DNA of 35,319 nucleotides from Candidatus Eremiobacteraceae bacterium (GTDB lineage Bacteria; Vulcanimicrobiota; Vulcanimicrobiia; Eremiobacterales; Eremiobacteraceae). Below, in pieces: positions 4,443-18,690 of the stretch; position 1 is the stretch's first letter; the number at the start of each line of letters is the position of its first letter. The DNA is taken from contig DATFYX010000031.1 in the NCBI GenBank assembly GCA_035314825.1, positions 1-35,319 on the forward strand, in the 5' to 3' direction. The notes beneath the pieces were generated by a model. The model had not been told where the DNA came from. It saw nothing but the letters and a program-made list of their open reading frames with translations, and searched no databases. Both the position numbers and the translations under genes were made by a program.

Positions 4443-5507
4443 ATGACGGAACATCCACGGCGCTACGTGCCCGAGCACATGGCGAGCATCAAGGTGATCG
4501 GCGTCGGCGGAGGAGGCTGCAACGCTATCAACCGCATGGTCGACGCCGGCATCAGGGGCGCCGAGTTCTATTCGATCAACACCGACGTCCAGGCGTTGAA
4601 GAACTCGCGCACTGAGAACACGCTGCAGATCGGACAGAACCTGACGCGTGGCCTGGGCGCGGGAGCCGATCCGGAGATCGGCCGCCAGGCCGCCGAAGAA
4701 TCAAAAGAAGACCTGGCCATGCTGGTCGAGGGAGCCGATCTCGTGTTCATCGCTGCCGGCATGGGCGGCGGCACGGGCACCGGTGCATCGCCGATCGTCG
4801 CGGAGATGGCGCACGGCGCAGGCGCGCTGACCGTCGGCGTGGTCACCAAGCCGTTCGGGTTCGAGCTGCGCAAGCGCGCGCAGATCGCCGAACGCGGCAT
4901 CGCCGATCTCGAGCAGAAGGTCGACACGCTCATCGTCATCCCGAACGACCGGCTGCTCTCGATCATCGAAAAGCGCACGCCGCTGACCGAAGCCTTCCGC
5001 AGCGCTGACGACGTGCTGCGCCAAGGCATCCAGGGCATCACCGATCTCATCACCCAGCCCGGCTTGATCAACCTCGACTTCGCCGACGTGCGGCGCGTCA
5101 TGACCGACGCAGGCTCGGCGCTGATGGGCATCGGCAAGGCCTCCGGCGAGAATCGCGCGGCGGATGCGGCGCAAAAGGCGATCTCCAGCCCGTTGCTGGA
5201 GGCGACGATCGACGGCGCGCGCGGCGTGATCTTCAACATCTACGGCGGACCGGATCTCTCGATGTTCGAGGTCAACGAGGCGGCCGAGCTGATCAGCAAA
5301 GCCGTCGATCCCGACGCCGAAGTCATCTTCGGCGCGACGATCGAGGAGAACATGAACAGCGAGGTGCGCGTGACCGTGCTCGCGACCGGCTTCGGATCGC
5401 GTGCGCGCGAGAAGACGCGCGTCGTCGGCGTCGGCGAGATCGAAAAGGTCAAGCCCGTCAACATGGACGAGATCGAGGTCCCGGCGTTCCTACGGTACTC
5501 GCGCTAA
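4443..5507 (+). CDS. ftsZ: Cell division protein FtsZ
   Basis: Tubulin-like GTPase that forms the Z-ring. 354 aa. Features: N-terminal [13 protein letters not shown] nucleotide-binding loop near residue 20; tubulin signature GGGTGTG at about 108-114; T7 catalytic loop [11 protein letters not shown] near residue 210. The short linker is followed by the conserved C-terminal peptide [10 protein letters not shown], which binds FtsA and other partners. The linker is very short, so the C-terminal peptide sits close to the GTPase core. The ATG start at 4443 has GGGGAGAAACAGG just upstream. Twelve bases after the stop is a 22-nt palindromic hairpin, which probably ends or stabilises the transcript. 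Confidence 0.98.
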
Positions 5508-5513
5508 CGCCCC

Positions 5514-5540
5514 ATGGAGCGGTCGAATTTATTCGACCGC
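5514..5540. repeat. 27-bp palindromic repeat, copy 1 (3' of ftsZ)
   Basis: A 27-bp sequence identical to the one at 17256-17282. Its last 22 bases form a perfect inverted repeat with arms GCGGTCGAAT and ATTCGACCGC around TT. It lies between the ftsZ stop and the stop of the convergent NUDIX gene, touching the latter. A bidirectional 3'-end hairpin or a REP-like dispersed element are both possible. Confidence 0.85.
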
Positions 5541-5971
5541 TACGGGCGCCACGGCGCACCGATATAGCGGCAGCCGTGGAACCCGGTCGTAAGGTCGTCG
5601 GCGATCTGCTCGCCGGCATCGGGATAGATCGCCAGACGCCGCAGGTCGGCGATCGGATGCCAGACGCACGCAGCCACGCGCGGGTCGAGCGACGCACCGA
5701 GCGGCCCGCGCAAGGCCGCCTCGAAGACGAGCTGGATGACGTGGCGTGCACCCGACGGCGCGCGCGTTTCCACAACGTAGCGAAAGGCGCCGATGTCGGC
5801 CGCTGCTCCCGCCTCTTCGGCCAACTCTCGCGCCAGCGCCGCAGGGGCGGTCTCGCCGGGTTCGACGCCGCCGCCCGGCAGCAGAAACGCGACGTGACTC
5901 CCGCGCACGTGTTTGGCGAGCAGTACGCAGCCGTCTTGGAGGCACAGCGCAGCGACGCGGGTCCGCAGCAT
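5540..5971 (-). CDS. NUDIX hydrolase
   Basis: Cytoplasmic pyrophosphohydrolase acting on a nucleoside-diphosphate-linked substrate, 143 aa, the size of a single NUDIX domain. The Nudix box is complete near residues 33-55: GGGVEPGETAPAALARELAE followed by EAG, fitting GX5EX7REUXEEXGU with both metal-binding glutamates. Substrate specificity cannot be read from sequence. The gene is convergent with ftsZ; the palindromic repeat lies between them. Upstream, only 26 bp separate its start from the divergent SRPBCC gene, so promoters must overlap or lie in the coding regions. Confidence 0.9.
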   Translation of the reverse strand: MLRTRVAALCLQDGCVLLAKHVRGSHVAFLLPGGGVEPGETAPAALARELAEEAGAAADIGAFRYVVETRAPSGARHVIQLVFEAALRGPLGASLDPRVAACVWHPIADLRRLAIYPDAGEQIADDLTTGFHGCRYIGAPWRP

Positions 5972-5997
5972 CGCGCTGGCTATTCGGAGGTGTCACG

Positions 5998-6486
5998 ATG
6001 AAAGCCGTTTGCAGCGAATGCATCGACATCGCTCTGCCGGTCGGCCGGGTGTTCGAGTTCGTATCGGACCTGGCGCGCTGGCCGCTGTGGCTGAGCTTCG
6101 TCGTGTGCGCCCAAAGCCCGGACGAGCAGGAGGTCGAGATCTGCATGCAGCGCGGCAAGCGCCGCTGGCGCGAGACTTTCGACGTGATCCGCTACGTGCC
6201 CAACGCGTTCTTCTGGCTCGAGGGCGCGCTGTCGGCGGCGCGGCGTATCGAGTTCCGCTTCGAACAGCGCCGCACGGGCACGCGGCTGCATTGCTCGATC
6301 GGCTATCCGGTCTATGGCGGCGGCTTAGGAGTCGCGCGCGATGCGTTGTTCGAGCGCCGCAGGGTCGCGCGCGATCTCGAGCGCTCGCTGCTGGGTCTGA
6401 AGACCACGCTTGAAGACGCCCATCGCGTCGACGAGGCTGAAGAAGGTATCGTTATGGGGAGCGCAAATCAACCGCTTCCTGCCTGA
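5998..6486 (+). CDS. SRPBCC/START-like family protein
   Basis: 162 aa. The opening ECIDIALPVGRVFEFVSDLA followed by RWPLW matches the N-terminal strand-helix pattern of polyketide-cyclase/SRPBCC proteins, which bind hydrophobic ligands in a helix-grip fold. The C-terminal helix region (RDLERSLLGLKTTLED) also fits. Ligand and role are unknown. The ATG start at 5998 follows GGAGG with six bases between. The stop overlaps the next start by one base (TGATG), so this gene and the FmdB-like gene are probably one operon. Confidence 0.75.
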   Translation: MKAVCSECIDIALPVGRVFEFVSDLARWPLWLSFVVCAQSPDEQEVEICMQRGKRRWRETFDVIRYVPNAFFWLEGALSAARRIEFRFEQRRTGTRLHCSIGYPVYGGGLGVARDALFERRRVARDLERSLLGLKTTLEDAHRVDEAEEGIVMGSANQPLPA

Positions 6487-6842
6487 TGCCGACGTATGAT
6501 TACCGCTGCAAACAGTGCGGCACCACCCATGAGATCGCTCACGGCTTCAACGACCCCCGGCCGACCACGTGTCCGGCGTGCGGGGGTCAGCTAGCGCGCG
6601 TCTTCCATCCGGTGGGCGTCGTGTTCAAGGGCTCAGGCTTCCATAAGACCGATTACGCCGGCACGGGCGCCAAGAAGGACGCGGCTGAACCGGCCGCGCC
6701 CAAGGCCGACAGCGCCAAATCGGATGGTGCCAAGACGGAAGGCTCGGCTTCGTCCGCACCGGCTGCGCCGAAGAGCGAGAAGCCGCCGGCCGCGACCCCG
6801 CCGCCCGGCAAGTCGGATTCCAAACCGTCCGGATCGAGTTGA
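6486..6842 (+). CDS. FmdB-family zinc ribbon protein
   Basis: 118 aa. The N-terminal 45 residues match the FmdB/CxxC_CxxC_SSSS putative regulatory domain: MPTYDYRCKQCG...CPACGG, with two CxxC pairs expected to bind zinc, and a phenylalanine-rich VVFKGSGFHKTDY end typical of the family. From about residue 55 the protein is a low-complexity Ala/Lys/Pro/Ser tail, likely disordered. The family has been suggested to have regulatory roles, but no molecular function is established. The one-base overlap with the upstream SRPBCC gene and one-base gap to the downstream gene indicate an operon. Confidence 0.85.
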   Translation: MPTYDYRCKQCGTTHEIAHGFNDPRPTTCPACGGQLARVFHPVGVVFKGSGFHKTDYAGTGAKKDAAEPAAPKADSAKSDGAKTEGSASSAPAAPKSEKPPAATPPPGKSDSKPSGSS

Positions 6843-6843
6843 G

Positions 6844-7203
6844 ATGTTCCATGTCATCGGCGTGACGCTCGTGCTCATCGCGCTTCTCGCGGTCGCGGGC
6901 GGCGCTGCGTTCGTCGCGGTGCGTCTCGTCCAGTTCGCGCGCGCGGGCAAGGCACTACGCCGCCATCCGATCTTCGAAGCCGATTGGCGCGCGCACCAGC
7001 AAGAGACGGTGCAGCGCATACGTGCGGGTGGCGCCAAGCTTAAGGAAGACATAGGTAGCCTCGCCGCCGCAATCGCTCGGCTCGCGCTGGCGCTGGATGA
7101 ACTCGGCGCGCTCGCGTACGGCAGCTCGCGCCCGATCGAGCGGATCCTGCGCATCGGCCTTCCGTGGCTAGCCGGACTGCTGCGCGCGCCCGAAGGCCGC
7201 TGA
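6844..7203 (+). CDS. Small membrane protein of unknown function
   Basis: 119 aa, no family recognised. One N-terminal membrane helix near residues 4-26 (VIGVTLVLIALLAVAGGAAF) is followed by a basic segment and an amphipathic helical region (about residues 55-90) with a possible second hydrophobic stretch near the end. The ATG lies one base after the stop of the FmdB-like gene, so it is probably expressed with that gene. It ends seven bases before the convergent aroA stop. Confidence 0.65.
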   Translation: MFHVIGVTLVLIALLAVAGGAAFVAVRLVQFARAGKALRRHPIFEADWRAHQQETVQRIRAGGAKLKEDIGSLAAAIARLALALDELGALAYGSSRPIERILRIGLPWLAGLLRAPEGR

Positions 7204-7210
7204 TCGACCG

Positions 7211-8506
7211 TCACCCACGTTCGGCATACGCCGCGTGCCACGCCGCCTCAAATCCTGGAAACGATGTGCCGATGCACACGGCGTCGTCGATGGCGATCGG
7301 CGCTTTCGCGGCGGCTGCCAGCACCGCGGCCGTCATGCCGATGCGATGGTCCCCGCCCGTGGCGATCCGCTCGGGCGGGCGGAGCGGCCGCCCACCGCGC
7401 ACAGCGATGCCATCGGGCAGTTCGGTCACCGCGACGCCGAACGCGCGCAGCAGCTCGACGGTAGACGCGATGCGGTCGGACTCCTTGCCGCGCAGCTCCT
7501 CCGCCCCACGCACGACGAACGCGCCCTGCGCGGTAGCCGCCACCGCGCACAGCAGCGGGATCTCGTCGATGAGGTTCGGGATGCGCGCCGGATCGAGCTC
7601 GACGTTGCGCAGGGGCGCGGCCGACGACACCTCGATGTCGGCTACCGGTTCGCCGTGCATGACGCGCAAACCGCGGATGCTGATGTGCGCGCCCATGTCG
7701 CGCATGACGTCGAGCGCAGCAGTGCGCGTCGGATTGATGCCCACACCGAGTACTGAGATGCGGCTGCCCTGCACGCAAGTGGCCGCGGCGATGAAGTAGG
7801 CCGCTGACGAGACGTCGCCCGGGACCTCGTAGTCCGCGAGCGCATGCAGCGATGACGGCTGCACGCGCACGCGCAGGCCCTCGATCGCGAGCGCGGCGCC
7901 CATCTCGGCGAGCATCAGCTCGCTGTGGTCGCGGCTCTGGCACGGACTGGAAATAGTCGTCGTGCCGCGAGCCCGCAGCGCTGCGAGCATGATCGCCGTC
8001 TTCACCTGCGCCGAGGCGGTCTCGAGCTCGTGCGTGATCCCGTGTAAGCGCGTATCCGAGCGCGAGAGAGTCAGCGGTGCGTGCCCGCCTGGCGAGCTGC
8101 GCACGTCCGCTCCCATCGCGCGCAGCGGCACAGCGACGCGCTCCATCGGCCTGCGGCGCAGGCTCTCGTCGCCGTCCAACACCGCGTTGGCCCGCCCGGC
8201 CAAGAGCCCGGCAAGCACGCGCATCGTCGTGCCCGAGTTCCCACAGTCGATGGGAGCCGCCGGGTCGCGGAATTCGCCGGCGCCATCCACAGCGAGCGCC
8301 GTGCCGTCGTCCTCGACACTCACGCCGAGGCCGCGCAGGGCGCGAATCGTCGCAGCCACGTCCTCGCCGCGGTTGATGCCGAGCACGCGCGTCCTGCCGG
8401 TCGCTGCGCCTGCGAATATCAGGATGCGGTGCGAGATCGACTTGTCGCCCGGCACGCGCAGGGGTCCGTGCAGACGCTCCGGCGCGCGCAACTGTATGGA
8501 TGTCAC
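7211..8506 (-). CDS. aroA: 3-phosphoshikimate 1-carboxyvinyltransferase (EPSP synthase)
   Basis: Sixth step of the shikimate pathway: joins shikimate-3-phosphate and PEP to EPSP, cytoplasmic. 431 aa, the normal length. Motifs: LRVPGDKSISHR near residue 16 with the substrate-binding lysine, serine and arginine; IDCGNSGTTMRVLAG near residue 86, containing the family's LxxGNxGTxxR element; and ELRGKESDRI near residue 345. The start is GTG at 8506 with no strong ribosome-binding site, so a slightly different start is possible. The gene is divergent from ctaA across a 128-bp gap that must carry promoters in both directions. Confidence 0.96.
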   Translation of the reverse strand: MTSIQLRAPERLHGPLRVPGDKSISHRILIFAGAATGRTRVLGINRGEDVAATIRALRGLGVSVEDDGTALAVDGAGEFRDPAAPIDCGNSGTTMRVLAGLLAGRANAVLDGDESLRRRPMERVAVPLRAMGADVRSSPGGHAPLTLSRSDTRLHGITHELETASAQVKTAIMLAALRARGTTTISSPCQSRDHSELMLAEMGAALAIEGLRVRVQPSSLHALADYEVPGDVSSAAYFIAAATCVQGSRISVLGVGINPTRTAALDVMRDMGAHISIRGLRVMHGEPVADIEVSSAAPLRNVELDPARIPNLIDEIPLLCAVAATAQGAFVVRGAEELRGKESDRIASTVELLRAFGVAVTELPDGIAVRGGRPLRPPERIATGGDHRIGMTAAVLAAAAKAPIAIDDAVCIGTSFPGFEAAWHAAYAERG

Positions 8507-8634
8507 GCGGCCAGCTTGCGACCCGCAGATGCCGTCACCTCCTGCGCGCGGTTGACGAAAGTCGGGCGCATCGCACGAGCGCTGCGCGCTGCGAACAGGA
8601 TATCAGCGAAGCCCATCTTAAGACTCGAACGTCC

Positions 8635-9615
8635 ATGAGCATCGCCGCCGCCGCTTCGAGCGTGTCCGTCAAGACGCTGCGTTACACGAGCCTGGGCTCG
8701 GCGCTGTTCGCCCTCGCGCTCGTCGTGTGGGGCGGCATCGTGCGCATCAATGGGGCCGGCATGACGTGCCCCGATTGGCCGCGCTGCCGCGGCGCCTGGT
8801 TCCCAGCCCTCAACGACAGCGTCGTCTACGAATGGACGCATCGGCTCGGCGCGCCCATCCTCACGCTGTTGATCGTCGCCACGTTCATCGCCGCGTGGCA
8901 GGCGCGGCGCGAACTGCCCGCAGCCTGGCGCGCCGCATGGTACCCGGCCGGCTTGCTGGTCGCGCAGATCATCGTCGGCGGCCTCACGATCAGGTACATC
9001 AACAATCCACCCAGCGTCGCTGCGCATCTCGGCCTGGGCATGTTGACCTTTGTGAGCCTGCTCGTCGTATGGTATGCGGCCGCGCAGCCGGCGGGCACGA
9101 CGGCGCCGTTCGATTCGCCCGCAGCTTCGCTGTCGTTCAGCCGGCTCGCGCTGTCTGCCGCTGCCGTCACATTCGCCGCGATCCTGGCTGCCGGGTATAT
9201 GAGCGCTTCAAACGACGGCCTCGCATGCACGCAATTCCCGCTTTGTAACGGATGGGGGGCGCCGCAGTCGCTGGCCCAACAGATCCACATGGCGCATCGC
9301 TTGCTCGCGTATGCAGCCTTCGCGCTTGTGCTGGTCTTGGGCCTCATCGGGATGCGTAGCCGAGACGCGCGCACGCGCTCCCTCTCCGCCCTTGCGCTGG
9401 TCCTCGCTGTCGTGCAGATCGCGTTGGGAGTCGCAACCGTGATGACCGCCCTTGAGCCCGTCTTGCGCTCGCTGCATCAAGCCAACGGTGCTCTCCTGTT
9501 CGCGACCCTCGTCATCCTCACGTATGCCGCCTATGCAGCCACGGCCGCTCCGGCCGGCACCGGCGCTGCAGACCCGGCACCGGCGCCGCAGCGCGCCGTC
9601 GCGCAAAACCCGTGA
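8635..9615 (+). CDS. ctaA: Heme A synthase CtaA
   Basis: Membrane enzyme that oxidises the C8 methyl of heme O to the formyl group of heme A. 326 aa with about eight membrane helices. The CtaA/COX15 pattern is clear: RINGAGMTCPDWPRCRG near residue 38, which includes the conserved cysteine pair loop, and heme-ligand histidines in WTHRLGAP, AAHLGLG, MAHRLLAY and SLHQANGALL. ATG at 8635 is chosen because it precedes the first hydrophobic segment by a short leader. The stop overlaps the ctaB GTG by four bases. Together with ctaB and the oxidase genes 2.5 kb downstream it forms a complete heme-A respiratory set. Confidence 0.93.
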   Translation: MSIAAAASSVSVKTLRYTSLGSALFALALVVWGGIVRINGAGMTCPDWPRCRGAWFPALNDSVVYEWTHRLGAPILTLLIVATFIAAWQARRELPAAWRAAWYPAGLLVAQIIVGGLTIRYINNPPSVAAHLGLGMLTFVSLLVVWYAAAQPAGTTAPFDSPAASLSFSRLALSAAAVTFAAILAAGYMSASNDGLACTQFPLCNGWGAPQSLAQQIHMAHRLLAYAAFALVLVLGLIGMRSRDARTRSLSALALVLAVVQIALGVATVMTALEPVLRSLHQANGALLFATLVILTYAAYAATAAPAGTGAADPAPAPQRAVAQNP

Positions 9616-10517
9616 GCGCACTGAGCGTCGCGATGGGCGACGCGCGCACCATGGTGCGCGACTACGTCACGCTGACCAAACCGAACGTGATGTCGCTGTT
9701 GCTGTTCACCACGCTGGCGGCGATGTTCATCGCGCAGGGCGGCGTGCCCAACGCGTGGCTGATGATCTGCACGCTGCTGGGCGGCGCGCTCGCGGCGGGA
9801 TCGTCCGGCGCGCTCAACATGTACTTCGACCGCGACATCGACGCGGTCATGAGCCGCACCCGCAACCGCCCGATCCCGAGCGGCCGGCTACCTGCGGCCC
9901 ATGCGTTGGTGTTCGGCATCGTCCTGGCGATCGCGTCGTTCGCGGTGCTTGGGTTGACCGTCAACCTGCTCGCCGCAGCCCTCGCGCTGGCCGGCATCGC
10001 GTTCTACGTCGGCGTCTATACGCTGTGGCTCAAACGCACGAGCGTGCAGAACATCGTCATCGGGGGCGCTGCCGGCGCCGTGCCGCCGCTTGTCGGGTGG
10101 GCGGCGGTCACCGGCAAGCTCGACTTCACGGCCGCCCTGCTCTTCACGATCGTGTTCCTGTGGACGCCCCCTCATTTCTGGGCGCTCGCGCTCATCGCCA
10201 AGGGCGAATACGCGAAGGTCGGCATCCCGATGCTGCCGGTGGTTCGCGGCGACGCCGAGACGAAACGCCAGATCATCATCTATAGCGTGGTGCTCGTCGC
10301 CCTGACGCTTGCCTTAGTGCCGCTGCACGTGATGGGAGGCGTCTACCTGGCTTGCGCGGTGGCGCTCGACGCCGCGTTCCTCACCTGCGCGGTGCGCGTT
10401 GCGCGCGACGGCTCGATCCAGAGCGAGCGCGCCATGTACAAATTCTCGATGTTATACCTCGCCTTGCTCTTCGTCGCCATGGTGGTGGACCGGTTCGGAC
10501 ACGGTCCGGGGGCGTGA
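9612..10517 (+). CDS. ctaB: Protoheme IX farnesyltransferase (heme O synthase)
   Basis: UbiA-superfamily prenyltransferase that attaches a farnesyl group to heme B, making heme O for CtaA. 301 aa, about nine membrane helices. The prenyl-diphosphate/Mg2+ motif appears as NMYFDRDID near residue 75, followed by SRTRNRPIPSGR, a hallmark of CyoE/CtaB. Also typical are YTLWLKRTSVQNIVIGGAAG and WTPPHFWALA. The GTG start at 9612 overlaps ctaA, and its stop overlaps the next GTG (GTGA), so ctaA-ctaB-MFS appear translationally coupled. Confidence 0.96.
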   Translation: MSALSVAMGDARTMVRDYVTLTKPNVMSLLLFTTLAAMFIAQGGVPNAWLMICTLLGGALAAGSSGALNMYFDRDIDAVMSRTRNRPIPSGRLPAAHALVFGIVLAIASFAVLGLTVNLLAAALALAGIAFYVGVYTLWLKRTSVQNIVIGGAAGAVPPLVGWAAVTGKLDFTAALLFTIVFLWTPPHFWALALIAKGEYAKVGIPMLPVVRGDAETKRQIIIYSVVLVALTLALVPLHVMGGVYLACAVALDAAFLTCAVRVARDGSIQSERAMYKFSMLYLALLFVAMVVDRFGHGPGA

Positions 10518-11929
10518 GCTCGGCGCACGCCGCATACAGGCCTAGCGGCGTGCTTGCGCCGCTCGCCCTCGGGATGTTCATGCGCGCGCTGCAGCTGACG
10601 ATCATCGCACCGTCCTTGCTGGACATGGCGACATCGTTGCGCGCCGGACTTGCGAGTCTCGGGTGGATCATCGTCGCCTATGCCACCGGCTCGCTGATCG
10701 CGCAGCCGATCGCGGGCCGCCTCTCCGACGCGAAAGGCCGCAAGCTCGTCTTCGTGGCGGCAATCGCGCTGTTCGGGCTCGGCTCGCTGGTCTGCGCGCT
10801 GTCCACATCGTTTGCCGTCTTGATCCTGGGGCGCGTGATCCAGTCGCTCGGCGCGGGCGCGGTGGCGCCGGCGGCTACCGCGATCATCGGCGACTCGGTG
10901 CCAGACGACAGGCAGGGCGGCGCGCTCGGGCTGATCTACGGCGCGTTCGCGCTTGCGGCCGTGGTCGGATCCGTCTTAGGCGGCGTGCTCATAGACGCGG
11001 GCCACCGGCTGCATCTGCAGTTCTCCTGGCATCTGATCTTCTGGGTCAACATCCCGCTGGCGTTGATCACGTTGCTGCTCGCCGCGGGCCTGCCGGCGGA
11101 CAAGGCGCCGCGACAGCGTGTCGGGTTTGATGCGGGCGCCGTTGCGCTCATCGTCGGCTTTGCCGCCTGTGTGATGGGAGCCGGGGCCGCGCCGCCGTTG
11201 CAGCTCCCGCTGTGGCTCGGCGCCGCCGTCGCATGTGTTGTCGGACTCGTCATGTGGGAGCGGCGCAGCGCTGACCCCTTGATCGATCCTGCCCTGCTGC
11301 GCGAGCCCGGCACAGCGCTCGTCTACGCGATCGCCTTCGTGTCGGCGATTCCTATCTTCTCGGTGACGATCTACTCGGCCACCTACTACATGGCGCGCTT
11401 CCATGCGAGCGCGGCGCAGGCCGGCCTCGCGCTCTTGTTCCTCGCGCTTCCCCTGGGCCTCGGTCAAGGGGCCGGCGGGCGGCTGCTCAACCGATTCGGA
11501 CCCAAGGGCGTGCTCGCGACGGGACTCGCCGTATTGGCTGCCGGACTGGCATTCCTGGCATTCGATCCGCAGTTGTGGGGCGTGCGCATCGGACTGGCCC
11601 TGTCCGGTCTTGGCATGGGCCTAGGGACCGCACCTCCGAACGTGCTCATCTACCGTTATGTGGACGCGAGCCGTCGCGGCGCCGCGACCGGCCTGCTGAC
11701 GATGTTCGCAAGTTCCGGCGCGATCACGGCGCCGGCGATCGTCACGGCGTCGTTGAATCGCGGCCTCGATGCGGCAATCGATTTCCGCGCCGAGTACCTG
11801 GTCGCGTTCGCGCTTGCGCTCGGATGCATTCCACTGGCGACGCTGCTTCCGGTCGCGGCTCCCCCCGCGCGGCCGAGGGAATCCGAACCCGTGGCGGTAA
11901 CTCGGACTCCATACCCAGCGGTCGAATGA
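10514..11929 (+). CDS. MFS transporter, DHA2/EmrB-like drug exporter type
   Basis: Inner-membrane secondary transporter of the major facilitator superfamily, 471 aa. The motif-A loop GRLSDAKGRK lies near residue 73 between helices 2 and 3, and motif C-like ALAAVVGSVLGGVLIDAG follows in helix 5, a feature of drug:H+ antiporters. Length and the number of hydrophobic segments suggest 12-14 helices. Substrate unknown. The start is GTG at 10514, overlapping the ctaB stop, which puts this exporter in the heme-A operon. tRNA-Leu begins one base after its stop. Confidence 0.88.
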   Translation: MSSAHAAYRPSGVLAPLALGMFMRALQLTIIAPSLLDMATSLRAGLASLGWIIVAYATGSLIAQPIAGRLSDAKGRKLVFVAAIALFGLGSLVCALSTSFAVLILGRVIQSLGAGAVAPAATAIIGDSVPDDRQGGALGLIYGAFALAAVVGSVLGGVLIDAGHRLHLQFSWHLIFWVNIPLALITLLLAAGLPADKAPRQRVGFDAGAVALIVGFAACVMGAGAAPPLQLPLWLGAAVACVVGLVMWERRSADPLIDPALLREPGTALVYAIAFVSAIPIFSVTIYSATYYMARFHASAAQAGLALLFLALPLGLGQGAGGRLLNRFGPKGVLATGLAVLAAGLAFLAFDPQLWGVRIGLALSGLGMGLGTAPPNVLIYRYVDASRRGAATGLLTMFASSGAITAPAIVTASLNRGLDAAIDFRAEYLVAFALALGCIPLATLLPVAAPPARPRESEPVAVTRTPYPAVE

Positions 11930-11930
11930 A

Positions 11931-12015
11931 GCCGAAGTGGCGGAACTGGCAGACGCACGCGACTCAAAATCGCGCGAGGTCACCCCTCATGTGGGTTCGA
12001 TTCCCACCTTCGGCA
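11931..12015 (+). tRNA. tRNA-Leu (CAA)
   Basis: 85-nt cloverleaf with a long variable arm, as expected for leucine. The acceptor stem GCCGAAG pairs with CTTCGGC, with discriminator A at 12015. The anticodon stem CGCGA/TCGCG encloses the loop CTCAAAA, giving anticodon CAA (codon UUG). The T arm GTGGG TTCGATT CCCAC is intact. The 3' CCA is not encoded. It begins one base after the MFS stop, so it may share that transcript. Confidence 0.96.
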
Positions 12016-12089
12016 TACGACAAAACCACCATGGGCGGCGAGGATGCATCTGCGCCGCCGTGTAAGCGCCCGGCCGGGGGAGCTCACAG

Positions 12090-13184
12090 CTGAACGAGAC
12101 ACGCAGAGCGCCGCTGCTGGACACCGAGTTCTGGTCGGTGACGTTCATCTTGACCGTCATCAGCGGCTTGCTGATGTGGGGCGTCGTCGTCTTTCCGATC
12201 GACGACTACTTGCCGCGCGCCTCGTCGGCCGCCACCGACATCGATTTCATCTTCCGCTTCATGGCCTTCTTCGGCGTGCCGATCCTCGTCTACGTCAACG
12301 GCTTCTTGCTGTATTTCGCCTGGCGCTACCATACGCGCAAGGGCGACGATCTCATGGCGGTCGGCTCGGACATCCACGACCAGCCCGCGCTTGAGGCGGC
12401 CTGGACGATCATCCCATCGATTCTGATGCTGATCCTCGGCGTGATCAGCTATCTGGTGATGCCCAAGTACTATCTCGCCAGCGCGGCCAGCGTCGCGACG
12501 ATCGAAGCCGTCGGGCACACGTTCTATTACGAATTCCGCTATCCGGGTCTGAAGCATCCGGTCGAGAACGAGATGCACCTGCCGATCGGCAAACAGGTGA
12601 CCATCGACCTCACCTCGTCTGAAGACGACATCCGCAATGCCGTGATCCACTCGTTCTGGGCTCCCGAGTTCCGCGTCAAGCAAGACATGATCCCGGGCAT
12701 GATCGTGCCGATCCACTTCACGCCGACGCGCATCGGCACGTACCGCATCATCTGTACCGAATTCTGCGGGCTCGGCCATTCGGAGATGGTGGGCAAGGTC
12801 GTCGTCGAGTCGCAAGCGGACTTCGACGCCTGGTTCAAGAGCCAGCAGCAGCTGCAGGCGAGCGCCGGCATGCAAGGGCCGATCCCGATCGCCAACGGCG
12901 ACGCTGCCGCGGGCGGCCGCGTGTTCGCCACGAAATGCACGGGCTGCCATGCTGTCGGGCCGTTCTCGGAGCGCAAGGTCGGCCCGGGGCTAGGGAACCT
13001 GTTCCACGACCCGGATCATCCGGACTTGGTGACGGGCAAGCCGGCCGACCCGGATGACGTCGCCGACGTCATCGAGCACGGAGCCTCAGGCGACCTGGGC
13101 ACCATGCCGAACATGCAGGTCAACCAGTTGACGGACAAGGACGTCGCAAACCTGGTCGCCTACCTCGAGTCGCTGCACAAGTAG
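12090..13184 (+). CDS. ctaC: Cytochrome c oxidase subunit II with fused cytochrome c (caa3 type)
   Basis: Electron-entry subunit of the aa3-type oxidase. Hydrophobic segments occur near residues 16-38, 48-75 and 108-128, one more than the usual two. The periplasmic CuA domain is complete: a histidine in VIHSFWAPEF and CTEFCGLGHSEM supplying two cysteines, histidine and methionine. The C-terminal about 90 residues are a cytochrome c domain with heme motif CTGCH and a likely axial methionine in GTMPNM, so this is a caa3 oxidase. No ATG/GTG/TTG lies between the upstream stop at 12063 and GTG at 12138; CTG at 12090 has GGGGGAG seven bases upstream and keeps a short polar N-terminus, so it is preferred. 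GTG at 12138 is the alternative. Confidence 0.93.
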   Translation: MNETRRAPLLDTEFWSVTFILTVISGLLMWGVVVFPIDDYLPRASSAATDIDFIFRFMAFFGVPILVYVNGFLLYFAWRYHTRKGDDLMAVGSDIHDQPALEAAWTIIPSILMLILGVISYLVMPKYYLASAASVATIEAVGHTFYYEFRYPGLKHPVENEMHLPIGKQVTIDLTSSEDDIRNAVIHSFWAPEFRVKQDMIPGMIVPIHFTPTRIGTYRIICTEFCGLGHSEMVGKVVVESQADFDAWFKSQQQLQASAGMQGPIPIANGDAAAGGRVFATKCTGCHAVGPFSERKVGPGLGNLFHDPDHPDLVTGKPADPDDVADVIEHGASGDLGTMPNMQVNQLTDKDVANLVAYLESLHK

Positions 13185-13210
13185 TAGTAGAAGAAGGACG
13201 AGCAGGCCAC

Positions 13211-14866
13211 ATGTCGATCGCGCAGCTCCAAGCCGAAGCCAGCCACGCGCACATCCATCCGCCGCCGCAAGGCTTCATCGCGAAGTACGTGATCAGCTTC
13301 GACCACAAAGTCATCGCGGTCCAGTACTTCATCACCAGCGGCCTGTTCTTCGTGCTTGCGGGCCTGCTGGCCGAGCTGGTGCGCGCACAGCTCATGCACG
13401 CGCACAACACGCTGCTCAGCCCCCAGACCTTTAACGAAGCCTACAGCATTCACGGCACCGCGATGGTGTGGCTCGTCATCATCCCGATCATGACCGGCGG
13501 TTTCGGCAACCTCGCGATGCCGCTGCAGATCGGCGCGCGCGACGTCGCCTTCCCCTGGCTCAACATGTTCAGTTTCTGGCTTTTCCCGCCGGCAGGCTTG
13601 CTCATCTTCTTGAGCTTCCTGTACGGCGCCCCGCAGGCAGGCTGGACCGAATATCCGCCGGTCAGCCTGCACACGCCAGGCACTGCGCTATGGTGTGCCG
13701 GCGTCTTCCTCATCGGCGTGTCCAGCACGATCACCGGCATCAATTTCATGGTCACGATCATCAAGATGCGTTGCCCCGGCATGACGTGGACGCGCATGCC
13801 GCTGTTCACCTGGGCGACGCTCGTGACCGCGTTCCTCTCCGCGATCGCGACGGCCAATCTTTCCGCGGCCCTGGCCGGCCTGTTCATCGAGAAGGTCTTC
13901 AGCGTGCCGTTCTACGATCCGGCCAACGGCGGCAGCCCGGTGCTGTGGCAGCACGTGTTCTGGTTCTACTCGCACCCGGCCGTCTACATCATGATCCTGC
14001 CGGGCTTCGGCATCGTGTCGGAGGTGATCCCGGTCTTCGTGCGCCGGCCGATCTTCGGCTACAAGGCGATCGCCTATTCGTCGGTGGCCATCGGCCTGGT
14101 GTCGTTCATGGTGTGGGCGCACCACATGTTCACCAGCGGCCTGTCGCGCTGGGTGCAGCTGCCGTTCATGATCCTCACCATGGCGGTGGCGATCCCCACC
14201 GGCATCAAGATATTCTCGTGGGTAGCCACGTTTTGGCGCGGGCACGTGCGTTTGAGCACGCCGCTGCTCTTCGTGATCGGATTCCTCTCGATGTTCACCT
14301 TCGGCGGCGTCACCGGCGTGATGCTCGCATCGGTGCCGGCGGACATCCACGAGCACGGCACGTATTTCATCGTCGCCCATCTGCACTACGTGTTGGTCGG
14401 CGGCAGCGTGTTCACGATCTTTGCGGGCCTGTATTATTGGTGGCCCAAGATGACCGGCCGCTTGCTCGACGAACGCCTCGGCAAGTGGCACTTCTGGATC
14501 GCGTTCTTGTCGTTCAATGCGACCTTCTTGCCGATGCACTGGCTCGGGCTGCTGGGCATGCCTCGTCGCGTGGTCTACTACGACCCGCAATTCGAGCCGA
14601 CCAACATGTTCGTCTCGATCTCGGCCTTCGTGCTCGGAGCCTCGATGCTGATCTTCGCCTACAACGCGATCCGCAGCGCGAAGTACGGCAAGATCGCCGG
14701 ACCCAACCCGTGGGGCGGGCGCACGCTCGAGTGGATGACCTCGTCGCCGCCGCCGTATTACAATTTCGCCGAGATCCCGATCGTGCTGGACGGCCCGTAC
14801 GACTACGGCAAGCCGCTGCCGTATGCGAACATCTCGCAAGACCTGGCCACGGAGCCGGTGGCGTAA
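13211..14866 (+). CDS. ctaD: Cytochrome c oxidase subunit I
   Basis: Catalytic subunit of the heme-copper oxidase, reducing O2 to water while pumping protons. 551 aa, about 12 membrane helices. Metal ligands visible: low-spin heme a histidine in YSIHGT near residue 79; CuB histidine and cross-linked tyrosine in WFYSHPAVYIMILPGFG near residue 256; the CuB histidine pair in AHHMFTSG near residue 303; and heme a3/a histidines in AHLHYVLVGG near residue 390. YSHPAVY replaces the HPEVY of A1 enzymes, so this is an A2-type oxidase, lacking the D-channel glutamate and using the Tyr-Ser pair. It lies 26 bases after subunit II and 3 before subunit III. Confidence 0.97.
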   Translation: MSIAQLQAEASHAHIHPPPQGFIAKYVISFDHKVIAVQYFITSGLFFVLAGLLAELVRAQLMHAHNTLLSPQTFNEAYSIHGTAMVWLVIIPIMTGGFGNLAMPLQIGARDVAFPWLNMFSFWLFPPAGLLIFLSFLYGAPQAGWTEYPPVSLHTPGTALWCAGVFLIGVSSTITGINFMVTIIKMRCPGMTWTRMPLFTWATLVTAFLSAIATANLSAALAGLFIEKVFSVPFYDPANGGSPVLWQHVFWFYSHPAVYIMILPGFGIVSEVIPVFVRRPIFGYKAIAYSSVAIGLVSFMVWAHHMFTSGLSRWVQLPFMILTMAVAIPTGIKIFSWVATFWRGHVRLSTPLLFVIGFLSMFTFGGVTGVMLASVPADIHEHGTYFIVAHLHYVLVGGSVFTIFAGLYYWWPKMTGRLLDERLGKWHFWIAFLSFNATFLPMHWLGLLGMPRRVVYYDPQFEPTNMFVSISAFVLGASMLIFAYNAIRSAKYGKIAGPNPWGGRTLEWMTSSPPPYYNFAEIPIVLDGPYDYGKPLPYANISQDLATEPVA

Positions 14867-14869
14867 GCG

Positions 14870-15454
14870 ATGGCGACGCACGCGCTGCCGGTCAGCGACG
14901 CCGAATACGCCGAAGTCCGCGGCCACCGGCTGGTCGGTTTCCTGTTCTTCCTGGTCTCGGACTCGATACTGTTCTGCTCGTTCATCTTCGGCTATCTCTA
15001 CATCCGGGCGGCCTCGCCCGGCTGGCCTCCGCCGGGCGTGGAACGTCCGGGTCTCTATCTCGCGGCCGTCAACTCGATCGTGCTGTTCGGTTCCGGCGTG
15101 ACCATGCATCTGGCGATGGAAGCCTGGCGCCACGCGAACCGCTCGCGCTTCACAGCCTTCATCATCGCCACCATTGTGCTCGGTCTCGGATTCTTGTCAG
15201 GGCAGGCCTACGAGTACACGCATCTGCACGACACGTGGGCCGGCAGCACCTTCGGGGCGTCGTTTTTCACGCTGACGGGCATGCACGGCTTCCACGTCTT
15301 CATCGGCGTGATCTTCCTGATCACCGTGCTGCTGCAGACGAGGCGCGGCGTATACGACCAGACCCGTTACTTCGGCCTGACGGCGGCGACGTTGTACTGG
15401 CATTTCGTCGACGTCATCTGGGTCGCGCTGTTCTTCTTGTTCTATGTCTATTGA
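14870..15454 (+). CDS. ctaE: Cytochrome c oxidase subunit III
   Basis: Membrane subunit that stabilises subunit I and its proton uptake. 194 aa with five predicted membrane helices, the short bacterial form. Family features include LFFLVSDSILFCSFIFGYLY at the start, GQAYEYTHL in the middle, TLTGMHGFHVFIG with the conserved histidines, and WHFVDVIWVALFFLFY at the end. The ATG lies three bases after the subunit I stop. A small hairpin (GGCGCG at 15461-15466 with CGCGCC at 15476-15481) lies in the 40-bp gap before the next small gene. Confidence 0.95.
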   Translation: MATHALPVSDAEYAEVRGHRLVGFLFFLVSDSILFCSFIFGYLYIRAASPGWPPPGVERPGLYLAAVNSIVLFGSGVTMHLAMEAWRHANRSRFTAFIIATIVLGLGFLSGQAYEYTHLHDTWAGSTFGASFFTLTGMHGFHVFIGVIFLITVLLQTRRGVYDQTRYFGLTAATLYWHFVDVIWVALFFLFYVY

Positions 15455-15494
15455 CGTAGTGGCGCGTTCTTCGACCGCGCCGAAGGAATAGGGG

Positions 15495-15692
15495 ATGGAC
15501 GGATCGATCCTATTGCGGATCATAGCCGGCGCCGGGGCGCTGGTGGTCGGCTTTTTCGCGGTCAAGGCGCTCTACGAGGAGTGGCCGAAAACCGCGCTCG
15601 AGGATCAGGTCACCAAGATCATGATGGCGCTGCTCACGCTGGGCTGCATCATCGTCCTCACCGTCGCGCTCGGCAAAGCCGGGCACGTCTAG
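15495..15692 (+). CDS. Small two-helix membrane protein in the oxidase operon
   Basis: 65 aa with two hydrophobic segments (residues about 5-23 and 41-60) separated by a charged loop (EEWPKTALEDQVTK). No family is recognised with confidence. Its place directly after subunit III and its size suggest a subunit IV-like or assembly protein of the caa3 oxidase, which is inference from position. The ATG at 15495 follows a purine-rich stretch (GAAGGAATAGGGG). The next small gene starts nine bases after its stop. Confidence 0.65.
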   Translation: MDGSILLRIIAGAGALVVGFFAVKALYEEWPKTALEDQVTKIMMALLTLGCIIVLTVALGKAGHV

Positions 15693-15701
15693 GAGGCTGA
15701 C

Positions 15702-15899
15702 ATGGCACAAGGCGCGGAGGTCGACGAGTACGACATCCCGCAAAGCCGCGGGACCCCGGCGCTCGTTCGCTGGCTCGGCGTCGTCGGCGTCGCGATGATC
15801 GTCTTCATGGGAGCGATCACGATCGTGGAGGCCGGCGCAAATCACTATTGGCCCGCGAAAGACACGCCGACGGTGCCGCTGTCAGGCAGCTTGAGCTAG
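15702..15899 (+). CDS. Small single-helix membrane protein in the oxidase operon
   Basis: 65 aa: a polar acidic N-terminus (AEVDEYDIPQSRGTPA), one membrane helix near residues 24-44 (LGVVGVAMIVFMGAITIVEA) and a short proline-rich tail. No family recognised. A strong ribosome-binding site (TAGGAGG, five bases before the ATG) supports that it is a real gene. It is probably the last gene of the oxidase operon. Its TAG stop overlaps the TAG of the convergent gene at a shared CTAG. Confidence 0.65.
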   Translation: MAQGAEVDEYDIPQSRGTPALVRWLGVVGVAMIVFMGAITIVEAGANHYWPAKDTPTVPLSGSLS

Positions 15900-16480
15900 G
15901 GCTTCAGCTTCGGCGGCCGCGCACCGCCGACGCCAAGCATCGGGAAGTCTTCGGGCAGGATGCCCGTGGCGCGCCCGTCGATGGTATGAATCCCCCCGAA
16001 CTCGCTGAACTCCATGAACGCAGGGTGCTCCTCATCGGGCAGCGCCCGCTCCCCCGTTGCAACCCATTCGCACGCCGTGCGCCCGTCTTCGAGCACGACC
16101 GCGATGTAGCCGCTGCTTCCAGGCAGCGATCGCTCATCGGGCGCGCGCGTTCGCACGTAGCCGTCGACGATGAAGATCGGCTCGCGGGTCTGCAGCAGCG
16201 CCCGAATCGGGTAGACGAGCAGCGCGACCGCATAGAGCACGAAGCAGACGGCGCCGAAACCGAAGACCCAGGCGAAGTAGATGTAGCCTTGATGTTCTTT
16301 GGCGTCGGCCATGTGGACGATGGCCAGCGTGAATAGCCCGAACGCCAGCGCAAGCGCCCCCGGCTCGAGCGCGACCACGAAGCGGCCGCTCGCGCCGCGC
16401 CAGACCACGCGCCGCTCCTCAGGGCGCCAGGGCCGCATGGCGATGCTTCGCCGGCGTTGGCTCGGGCTCAAGGGCTCCAT
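15896..16480 (-). CDS. Unknown membrane protein, convergent with oxidase operon
   Basis: 194 aa from the chosen ATG at 16480, which has GAGG six bases upstream; an internal ATG at 16438 would give 180 aa. Two hydrophobic segments (VALEPGALALAFGLFTLAI and YFAWVFGFGAVCFVLYAVAL) form a membrane hairpin, followed by a mainly beta, charged C-terminal half (EPIFIVDGYVRTRAP ... SGYIAVVLEDGR). This layout resembles small PH-like membrane proteins, but no family is firmly recognised. Its 5' end overlaps the 5' end of the divergent SCO gene. Position suggests a link to oxidase biogenesis, as inference only. Confidence 0.65.
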   Translation of the reverse strand: MEPLSPSQRRRSIAMRPWRPEERRVVWRGASGRFVVALEPGALALAFGLFTLAIVHMADAKEHQGYIYFAWVFGFGAVCFVLYAVALLVYPIRALLQTREPIFIVDGYVRTRAPDERSLPGSSGYIAVVLEDGRTACEWVATGERALPDEEHPAFMEFSEFGGIHTIDGRATGILPEDFPMLGVGGARPPKLKP

Positions 16481-17255
16481 GACGGCCTCGGTGTTCGGGG
16501 CGGCATGCGCTTTCGCCCTGGCGTCCGCCGTCTGCGCATCGGCGCGCGCCGCATCCGCCACGCCGGCCCCCAACCCGTTCGACCAGCCGGTTCACCCGCT
16601 CGGAGTCGGAGACGTCCTGCCTGACGCGACCTATGTCGATCAAGCCGGCCGCCGCGTCTCCATCCAGCAGTTGCGGGGCCGCACGCTCGTCATCGGTTTT
16701 ATCTATACGAACTGCGCCGACGAGTGCCCGATCCTCACCGAGAAATTCGGCCGGCTGCAGGCCGCCCTGCCGGCCGACCGTTTCGAGCTGCTCGAGATCA
16801 GCATCGATCCCGCACGCGATACTCCGTTGGCGATCGCGAACTTCGCGCGCAGCCGCGGAGTGCGCGGCGAGAATTGGCGCGTGCTGACCGGCGACGCGTC
16901 ACTGGTCGACTCGTTCGCCAAGCCGCTCGGCGTGTCGGTGGTTCAAGGCGATCGTGGTCAATTGCTGCACAGCGAGAGGACGGTGATCGCCGGGCCAGAC
17001 GGCCGGATCGACCTTCTTGTCGATGACGCCGGATGGACCGCCACGCAGCTGGTCGCCGCGGCGCGCCATGCCGATGGGTTGCCGTCAAACGGGTTGGCGC
17101 GCTTCGACCTGGCGCTTGGCAAGGCGGTGCAAGCCGTGTGCGGCGGTTCGACCGCAGCGAAGTCCGGGATATGGGATCTGGTAGGGGTCTTGGGTGTCAT
17201 CGTCGTCGGCGGCTTGGTCGCGCTGCTGCTGGCACGCCGCCTTTTTCTCACCTGA
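16437..17255 (+). CDS. SCO1/SenC-family copper chaperone
   Basis: Thioredoxin-like copper/thiol protein that loads or reduces the CuA site of cytochrome oxidase subunit II, periplasmic. 272 aa. An N-terminal signal (LRRRWLGLKGSMTASVFGAA...) is followed by the SCO domain: LVIGFIYTNCADECPILTEK gives the CxxxC copper motif near residue 100, and LLHSERTVIAGPDGRI gives the third, histidine ligand. A C-terminal membrane helix (LVGVLGVIVVGGLVALLLA) would anchor it. ATG at 16437 is used; 16443 is equally possible, and 16479 would remove the basic signal-peptide start. Its place after the caa3 genes fits CuA assembly. The palindromic repeat begins at the first base after the stop. Confidence 0.9.
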   Translation: MAMLRRRWLGLKGSMTASVFGAACAFALASAVCASARAASATPAPNPFDQPVHPLGVGDVLPDATYVDQAGRRVSIQQLRGRTLVIGFIYTNCADECPILTEKFGRLQAALPADRFELLEISIDPARDTPLAIANFARSRGVRGENWRVLTGDASLVDSFAKPLGVSVVQGDRGQLLHSERTVIAGPDGRIDLLVDDAGWTATQLVAAARHADGLPSNGLARFDLALGKAVQAVCGGSTAAKSGIWDLVGVLGVIVVGGLVALLLARRLFLT

Positions 17256-17282
17256 ATGGAGCGGTCGAATTTATTCGACCGC
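17256..17282. repeat. 27-bp palindromic repeat, copy 2 (3' of SCO gene)
   Basis: Identical over 27 bp to 5514-5540, with the 22-bp inverted repeat at 17261-17282. It begins immediately after the SCO stop codon, so both copies sit just downstream of a + strand gene. No T-run follows the hairpin. Confidence 0.85.
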
Positions 17283-17349
17283 AGGCACGACAACCGATCC
17301 GGGGGAAACCACCGCAACCGGGCGTCGAAGAGGACTTGGAGGCTTGGAG

Positions 17350-17691
17350 ATGATGACGCGCAATGCATCGATGTTGGCCACGGCGTCCGTAACGGCGTTG
17401 CTCCTCGGCGCGTGCACGAACCCGACGACGCAGGGCGATTACGGCGCGCTCGCCGGCGTCGTGTCGTCGAGCGCCGGACCAGTCGCGGGCGCGCAAGTAT
17501 GCGTCGCCGTCGTCGACTGCGCGACGACCGCGGCGGACGGCACGTATAAGATCTCAACGGTGCCCGGAGATCCGACCGGCGTCATGGAGACGGTGACCGC
17601 GAGTGCGACCGGTTATCAGCCCTTTACCACGCAAGTGCACATAACGTCAGGGCAGCAAACGCCTCTTAATATCACGCTCGTCCACGTCTAA
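17350..17691 (+). CDS. Small lipoprotein with carboxypeptidase-regulatory-like fold
   Basis: 113 aa. A signal peptide ends in the lipobox LGAC near residue 24, so it is predicted to be lipid-anchored. The mature part (GALAGVVSSSAGPVAGAQVC ... TTAADGTYKISTVPGDPTG) follows the G-x-V...AxV...T.ADGxY..x.VPxG pattern of the CarboxypepD_reg-like/transthyretin-like beta-sandwich, which is common in cell-surface proteins with unknown ligands. The ATG at 17350 is supported by GGAGG with seven bases between; a second ATG follows directly. It lies alone between the SCO gene and the IclR operon. Confidence 0.8.
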   Translation: MMTRNASMLATASVTALLLGACTNPTTQGDYGALAGVVSSSAGPVAGAQVCVAVVDCATTAADGTYKISTVPGDPTGVMETVTASATGYQPFTTQVHITSGQQTPLNITLVHV

Positions 17692-17704
17692 GCGGCGCAA
17701 ACGC

Positions 17705-17810
17705 GTACGGGATAGGCGTTTCGCAGACAGGAACCGGCGCGGGGGTGCGCCAAGAGCCGTCCCGTTACAAGTGTCCCAATGAGCATCGGCCGCCTACTAA
17801 CGGCCGGTGC
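17705..17810 (+). promoter_or_regulatory. Structured leader upstream of the IclR gene (candidate cis-regulatory RNA)
   Basis: A closing helix ACGGGA (17707-17712) with TCCCGT (17760-17765) encloses a hairpin GGCGC/GCGCC (17736-17740 with 17747-17751). Downstream is a 10-bp hairpin with one G-U pair (17783-17792 with 17801-17810, loop CCTACTAA) followed by TTTGCGCT, weakly terminator-like. CCGTTA at 17762-17767 can instead pair with TAACGG at 17798-17803, which would break both. This is riboswitch-like logic, but no known class is recognised. Confidence 0.35.
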
Positions 17811-17862
17811 TTTGCGCTCCCCGGCAGCGAGCGCACGAAACTCGAGGGGGTTGGAGGACAGC

Positions 17863-18690
17863 GTGGTTATTTCGTCCGGTGAGACCGCCGCCGCAAAGCC
17901 GCGAGGCGAGTCCAAAGTCAACTCAGTCGACCGCGCATTGGTCATCCTCGAGTACCTGGGAACGCAGAGCAAGGAAGTCGGCGTCCGGGAGCTCGGCCAG
18001 GCGATCGGACTCTCGAAGAGCAGCGTTCACCGCATACTCCAGACCTTGCGCGCCCGCGGCTTCGTCAAATGGAACCCCGACAACGCCCGCTATTCCCTGG
18101 GCATCAAGGCCTTCGAGGTAGGCTGCGGCATCCTGCGGTCCATGGAGGCCCACACCGTCGCCAAACCGGTCCTGGAGCAGCTGGCCGTTGCGCTGGGCGA
18201 GACGGTTTTCTTGGGGGTCCTGGACGACACCGAGCTGGTCTATATCGAAAAAGTGGACGGCCGCCGGCCGGTCAAGATGTACGCCGACATCGGCGCGCGC
18301 CGGCCGATGCACTCCACCGGCATCGGCAAGGCGCTGCTCGCGCATCTCGATCGCGCCGAGATCGACCGCATCATCGCCAGCAAGCCGCTCGCCCGCTACA
18401 CGAAGAACACCATCACCGATCCCGAGGCGTTGCGCCTCGAGCTGGAAAAAGTCCGCCGCCAGGCCTACGCGGAGGACAACGAAGAGACTGAAGAAGGGCT
18501 GTACTGTGTCGGCGCGCCGCTGTTCAACTATTCAGGCCGACCCGTCGCCGCGATCTCCGTCGCGGTGCCAAAGTTTGGGCAGCAGCAGCTGCCGCGCGAT
18601 CGCGTCATCAAGCACGTCGTCGCCGCGGCGCAAGAGATCTCCGCCAAACTCGGCTACAGCGGCCGCGCGAAGAACGCCGCTCTCGGCTAG
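17863..18690 (+). CDS. IclR-family transcriptional regulator
   Basis: Dimeric or tetrameric DNA-binding regulator with a small-molecule-binding domain. 275 aa from GTG at 17863, chosen because GGAGG stands five bases upstream and the length then matches the family; an upstream ATG at 17779 would add 28 unusual residues. A winged-helix HTH spans about residues 18-75 (SVDRALVILEYLG ... LSKSSVHRILQTLRARGFV), followed by the IclR effector domain (about 90-260) with YIEKVDGRRPVKMY and MHSTGIGKALLAHL. IclR proteins often control glyoxylate, glycerate or aromatic catabolism; the next two genes are glycerate-pathway enzymes, so those are likely targets. The reductase gene starts nine bases after the stop. 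Confidence 0.92.
   Translation: MVISSGETAAAKPRGESKVNSVDRALVILEYLGTQSKEVGVRELGQAIGLSKSSVHRILQTLRARGFVKWNPDNARYSLGIKAFEVGCGILRSMEAHTVAKPVLEQLAVALGETVFLGVLDDTELVYIEKVDGRRPVKMYADIGARRPMHSTGIGKALLAHLDRAEIDRIIASKPLARYTKNTITDPEALRLELEKVRRQAYAEDNEETEEGLYCVGAPLFNYSGRPVAAISVAVPKFGQQQLPRDRVIKHVVAAAQEISAKLGYSGRAKNAALG

Follow-up and report, generated by a model that had tools for sequence, protein, structure and literature searches.

Identical hairpins behind ftsZ and an SCO gene as very probable GTAG-type REP copies of an Eremiobacteraceae REP/RAYT system

Two identical pieces of DNA, each with the makings of a perfect hairpin, stand behind two unrelated genes in a 35,319-nucleotide stretch (the window) of the draft genome of a Candidatus Eremiobacteraceae bacterium (assembly GCA_035314825.1, contig DATFYX010000031.1), and the question they raise is what kind of sequence they are and how it came to lie there. 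A sequence-only reading had described them as identical 27-mers containing a 22-bp perfect inverted repeat, placed right after a stop codon, lacking a T-run and not due to chance, and every part of that description held up. The 27-mers at 5514-5540 and 17256-17282 are identical, and each runs A-TGGAG and then the perfect hairpin GCGGTCGAAT-TT-ATTCGACCGC, an inverted repeat of 10 + 2 + 10 bp at 5519-5540 and 17261-17282. The first copy of the element (5515-5540, forward strand) has a T followed by the head GGAG (5516-5519), arms at 5519-5528 and 5531-5540 and the loop TT at 5529-5530; the second (17257-17282, also forward) has its T and GGAG head (17258-17261), arms at 17261-17270 and 17273-17282 and the TT loop at 17271-17272.

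The first 27-mer starts 6 bp after the stop codon TAA (5505-5507) of ftsZ (4467-5507, forward strand; PF00091 and PF12327), whose start is the prediction of a custom gene caller. This copy lies between convergent stop codons, with that of the facing NUDIX hydrolase gene (5540-5971, reverse strand; PF00293) starting on its final base. The second 27-mer begins immediately 3' of the stop codon TGA (17253-17255) of an SCO1/SenC gene (16479-17255, forward strand; PF02630), in the tandem gap before a gene for a carboxypeptidase-regulatory-like domain (17350-17691, forward strand; PF13620). No T-run follows either copy, and a terminator scan of 5000-18000 listed neither of them. With as many as 3 mismatches allowed, the inverted repeat matches the window at these two places only, and it had no match in any of 100 dinucleotide-preserving shuffles. 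Elsewhere in the window, 11918-11930 (AGCGGTCGAATGA), just 5' of a tRNA-Leu gene (11931-12015), resembles half of the element, which may be chance, and what had looked like a second repeat near 11929 is the tRNA-Leu gene itself.

A dispersed REP/MITE-like element had been one of the two readings offered, with a count across the genome as its check. In the window's genome, a draft of 2,548,101 bases in 89 contigs that is 97.25% complete, the exact 18-bp core GGTCGAATTTATTCGACC occurs 58 times, while GGTCGAATNNATTCGACC occurs at 107 sites exactly and at 188 with up to 2 mismatches, and the reversed control of each search gave 0. The half-element with its head, TGKAGCGGTCGAA, was found 114 times. 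The high copy number of a GTAG-type REP is thus present, at 107 to 188 sites by stringency. Five copies of the same direction lie within about 280 bp in one intergenic gap (C23:12302-12579). Copies were also noted by eye near a contig end in C12, C25 and C79, the last of which terminates exactly at a REP core (C79:8182-8199).

The anatomy of the element was taken from 143 aligned sites that differ from GKAGCGGTCGAATNNATTCGACCG at no more than 4 positions (96 of them exact); they come from 87 joined stretches (333,715 bases) around sites among the matches listed, a sample in which variants on later contigs are under-represented and from which 11 hits at 5-6 mismatches were left out. The reversed consensus gave nothing below 6 mismatches in the same stretches. 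The REP consensus reads TG[G/T]AG-CGGTCGAAT-NN-ATTCGACCG, a hairpin-forming palindrome in the range of 20-40 bp (24 bp with the head) that carries a GTAG-type tetranucleotide at its foot. Among these listed sites the head is GGAG in 85, GTAG in 41 and another tetranucleotide in 17, so that 126 of the 143 begin with GGAG or GTAG, GTAG proper being in the minority, and a T stands 5' of the head in 127. The element is directional, with a loop that is mostly TTTA or TTCA at the listed sites, and its nine stem pairs are 94-100% Watson-Crick there. Compensatory cells of the stem, in which both sides had changed, numbered 17 against 1.8 expected with independent arms, a count inflated by the common descent of the copies, so that the hairpin is supported yet not cleanly tested by it. 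As RNA, the hairpin has a stability of about -16 kcal/mol. The flanking sequence varies between copies, and 28 neighbour pairs lie no more than 120 bp apart among the listed sites (21 in the same direction and 7 inverted).

Enrichment close to stop codons and in convergent gaps, the further check proposed for the element, was found as well. By the calls of a custom hexamer gene caller, which is non-standard, the 143 listed sites divide into 59 in tandem, 23 in convergent and 16 in divergent gaps, with another 44 in predicted genes and 1 at an edge. Of 4000 random positions, 93% fell in genes and 0.3% in convergent gaps (12 of 4000, against 23 of 143 for the listed copies). The median distance to the nearest stop codon is 10 bp, and 66 of the 82 listed tandem or convergent copies have one within 30 bp. 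This placement at 3' ends and in convergent gaps matches that published for GTAG REPs (PMC3733652). Being intergenic at 98 of the 143 listed sites, the element is a predominantly extragenic one, a term that fits loosely given the high intragenic share.

The copies inside genes were looked at closely. Of nineteen genes with copies well inside them that were compared with Pfam, all but one matched a family (18 genes); in 14 genes, holding 18 copies together, Pfam homology lies on both sides of the copy or runs across it, a bracketing that is our own reading of the match tables. These genes are alr, fabH, tilS, mutS2, nuoC, carB, purL and recO, together with those for a NicO-like protein (just under the Pfam cut-off), a DAGK/YegS lipid kinase, an amidase, an AMP-binding enzyme, a rubrerythrin-VIT1 protein and an E2 acyltransferase with three copies in its linker. 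At least 18 bracketed copies, in the 14 genes, are in frame. The element can be read without a stop codon in five of its six frames, and the peptides read from its frames are MERSN[S/L]FDR, DGR[I/M]NSTAP, WSGRI[H/Y]ST, GAVEFIRP and RSNEFDRS. When carB, fabH, alr and purL are aligned to proteins of solved structure, their copies coincide with insertions or with linkers that align poorly; the structure alignment of the lipid kinase begins within the REP copy and so says nothing of its placement. In congeners the purL linker is of similar length and different sequence, so no net insertion is seen there. The three REPs of the 2-oxoacid dehydrogenase E2 linker (C59:44061-44168) are in tandem and in frame, between the E3-binding and the catalytic domain.

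Counted by hand, 25 of the 143 listed copies are 60 bp or more from the edge of the predicted gene that holds them, a figure that omits two copies in a 186-bp low-score ORF. Intragenic copies in a sister genus, by comparison, number 0 of 34 in one genome (G012) and 2 of 49 in another (G005), a difference with a Fisher p of 5e-4, although copies in the same gene are non-independent and the finders differed between the sets. Two contigs of the window's genome not chosen by site gave 24 hits, of which 3 overlap the end of a gene and 4 are internal to one (reversed control 1); the intragenic difference is smaller in this sample, and one of the inside copies (C1:161541) looks like chance. Stop codons in the sister-genus version were considered as the cause of its intragenic rarity and rejected, one variant, worked by hand, being as low in stops as the version here. 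In the published record, Opitutus terrae holds most of the GTAG intragenic REPs (PMC3733652), and for P. fluorescens SBW25 PMC3116915 gives 1,067 occurrences of the most abundant 16-mers, of which 14 overlap genes.

The relatives show how recent this abundance may be. From 107 sites in the window's genome, GGTCGAATNNATTCGACC drops to 1 in the congener G001 and 0 in 59 other relatives, and TGKAGCGGTCGAA is found 0-2 times per genome across 13 genomes of the same family against 114 here. The sister genus g4 (G005 and G012) has nearly the same element, with the stem one pair longer, and a pattern spanning both stem lengths gave 134 matches here, 439 in G005 and 270 in G012, 2 in G011 and 1 in G009 (reversed control 0), and none in the other 9 same-family genomes, two congeners included. 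The count in sister genomes, which had also been suggested, therefore places 270-439 elements per genome in the sister genus and finds the expansion absent in two congeners. The sequence-only reading held that only two copies with no conservation in relatives would speak against a dispersed element; the copy number contradicts this, while the want of conservation in relatives was indeed found, as is expected of a mobile element. Among the genomes of the GTDB collection, from which the window's own may be missing, a scan returned one contig (JAFAKE010000093.1, Candidatus Eremiobacterota isolate CP_BE_RX_3). A virus as carrier of the REP was considered and set aside, with 0 matches to the pattern in viral contigs.

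Single sites carry some of this history. At the ftsZ site, the 36-bp stretch that holds the REP is absent from the alignment of G001, where, in our reading of that alignment, the two convergent stop codons overlap. At the SCO site the REP is absent in the congeners G001 and G002 in an intergenic region too diverged for a clean empty site, and the other sites in two compared 20-kb stretches are mostly too diverged or unaligned for clean junctions. The single G001 copy (C100) sits where the window's genome also has one (C34:39912-39957), and in the window's genome a second copy adjoins it. Because this copy is common to the two genomes by position, it probably predates their split, with the expansion coming later, and the expansion itself is specific to this species.

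An enzyme that could have driven such an expansion was sought in the same genomes. PF01797, searched with a positive control at E up to 0.1, was matched in 10 of 11 other same-family genomes, in all 10 over the curated cut-off, and had no match in three genomes of the window's genus. The NCBIfam model of the REP-associated tyrosine transposase (RAYT; REP_Tyr_transpos, NF047646), in a search with a positive control, had no match in the window's own genome, a family RAYT alignment searched without one at E up to 10 gave nothing in that genome or two congeners, and tblastn of a sister RAYT against fetched stretches of the window's genome also gave nothing. A RAYT remnant there was thus rejected, as the tblastn and genome searches were empty, and the RAYT-family searches found no Y1 transposase of any kind in the window's genome and two congeners. 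A REPtron, a RAYT gene with REPs on its flanks in one genome, is therefore not seen in the window's genome, a 97.25% complete draft in which an assembly gap is possible, at which the copies noted near contig ends might hint; the RAYT would have been lost after the expansion or would lie hidden in such a gap.

In the rest of the family the two are often found together. A G[T/G]AG with a hairpin stands near 11 of 16 RAYT loci, and at 8 of them the gene has one on each side, the two oppositely oriented. Three RAYT genes of genus g4 likewise have G[G/T]AGCGGTCGAGCTTTAGCTCGACCG or its GATTYATC variant on either side, pointing in opposite directions, and the element at these genes reads GTAGCGGTCGAGCTTTAGCTCGACCG or, in a close variant, GGAGCGGTCGAGATTYATCTCGACCG; an element related to that of the window therefore flanks RAYT genes within the lineage, in G005 and G012. 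Six RAYT proteins tested scored 88.7-108.7 bits against the NF047646 cut-off of 80, those of genus g4 scoring 88.7-99.7. Other genera have the same head with different stems, as would be the case if each REP had diverged in step with its RAYT. RAYT genes of sister genera are flanked by genus-specific GTAG hairpins, such as TTGTAGGGCGGACCTTTATGGTCCGCC in G013.

Both sites of the window are, with high confidence, copies of a GTAG-type REP that belongs to a REP/RAYT system of this bacterial family. The dispersed element that had been proposed gains its substance from the well over 100 copies in the genome, the G[G/T]AG head with its hairpin, the ftsZ site that is empty in a congener and the near-identical element that flanks sister-genus RAYT genes. 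A RAYT, which is an HUH tyrosine transposase, would recognise the single-stranded hairpin together with the 5' G[G/T]AG and copy or move the element to new places, and selection would leave copies where they are least harmful: a short way past a stop codon, within a convergent gap or in frame in a protein linker. For the perfect-palindrome group, recognition of the single-stranded hairpin and tetranucleotide by RAYT was shown in vitro (PMC8266576), and the window's element, whose stem has no bulge and whose loop is small and directional, would seem to fit that group. The RAYT itself may have been lost from the window's genome. Counting against a GTAG-type REP are the lack of a detected RAYT or other Y1 transposase in the window's genome and congeners, a head in which GTAG is the minority, the prevalence of singlets or direct repeats, the 44 of 143 listed copies that overlap genes, which is many for a "repetitive extragenic" element, the SCO site without a clean empty junction and the purL copy without a net gain in length. 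A bolder and rather doubtful version is that of an orphan REP population, expanded after the split and in frame unusually often, whose short hairpin has become a peptide module for the linkers and loops of essential enzymes and which may now depend for its movement on a RAYT acting in trans or on some enzyme that is not a classical RAYT.

The other reading offered at the outset, a strongly constrained 3'-end signal, fared badly, since the copies are not kept in 2 congeners and many lie in frame within core genes. In its general form, a terminator or 3'-end RNA stabiliser in which the hairpin is kept at gene ends to end or protect transcripts, it would account for the strong bias towards post-stop positions and convergent gaps, the covarying stem and the -16 kcal/mol fold. 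An intrinsic terminator, however, is a G+C-rich hairpin with a T-run, which is absent here, as are the copies from the terminator scan; a signal of this kind needs no conserved 5' tetranucleotide outside the hairpin, and it sits poorly with at least 18 in-frame copies inside Pfam-bracketed genes and with their lack of conservation in the congeners. As the main role, termination is rejected on the missing T-run and the intragenic copies, and the explanation as a whole is improbable, although individual REP copies may have a secondary RNA effect. Still less credible is a binding site of a DNA protein (a regulator, a nucleoid or gyrase-like target or an uptake sequence) recruited in this species: the element is palindromic, numerous and species-specific, but it has no promoter-side bias (16 of 143 listed sites divergent, against 23 convergent), from its covarying stem the fold seems to be maintained along with the sequence, it occurs in frame within genes and its sister-genus form flanks RAYT genes, and an uptake sequence is further opposed by its non-conservation in congeners. 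Chance or an assembly artefact, for which the 89 contigs of the draft and the ending of C79 within a copy might speak, is practically eliminated by the empty shuffles, the high counts with reversed controls of 0 and the flanks that differ between copies.

Read as a GTAG-type REP, the element brings a REP/RAYT system to light among the Eremiobacterota, and one whose history can be read: one genus has RAYT and abundant REPs and another has one RAYT-less expanded species beside two near-empty congeners. The RAYT/hairpin pairs of the sister genera form a natural set for REP/RAYT co-divergence, and the in-frame copies in core genes are a ready set for testing how proteins tolerate a selfish hairpin. 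For annotators there is a warning that these hairpins are not terminators. Searches of a paper library for palindromic repeats of Eremiobacterota or WPS-2 found no description of this REP family.

Several known systems resemble it in part. With the GTAG REP/RAYT systems (Di Nocera 2013, PMC3733652; Nunvar 2010, PMC2817692) it shares the 5' GTAG-type tetranucleotide, the short palindrome, more than 100 copies, post-stop and convergent-gap placement, some intragenic copies and the flanking of RAYT in a sister genus, whereas here GGAG is commoner than GTAG, no RAYT was found in the genome and the intragenic share is larger than in the RAYT-bearing sister genus. The Group 3 REPtron of Stenotrophomonas maltophilia (PMC8266576) likewise has a bulge-free perfect palindrome, a small orientation-dependent loop and a conserved tetranucleotide, but there the loop is GCT while here it is mostly TT or TC, and the present element is known from sequence alone. 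Rickettsia palindromic elements (RPE) share the in-frame insertion into conserved genes and the encoding of a short peptide; their mark is a CGTC tetranucleotide end (PMC3733652), in contrast to the G[G/T]AG head here, where relatives are linked to RAYT and most copies are intergenic. REPINs (PMC3116915) are also short repeats that form, inside a single genome, the population of a RAYT-type lineage, but they are inverted doublets, whereas here singlets or direct repeats prevail and 7 of the 28 listed neighbour pairs are inverted. The kind of element, its 3'-end bias, its intragenic copies and the loss of RAYT are all already published; moderately unusual is the combination of an orphan population confined to one species with numerous copies that lie in frame in core genes.
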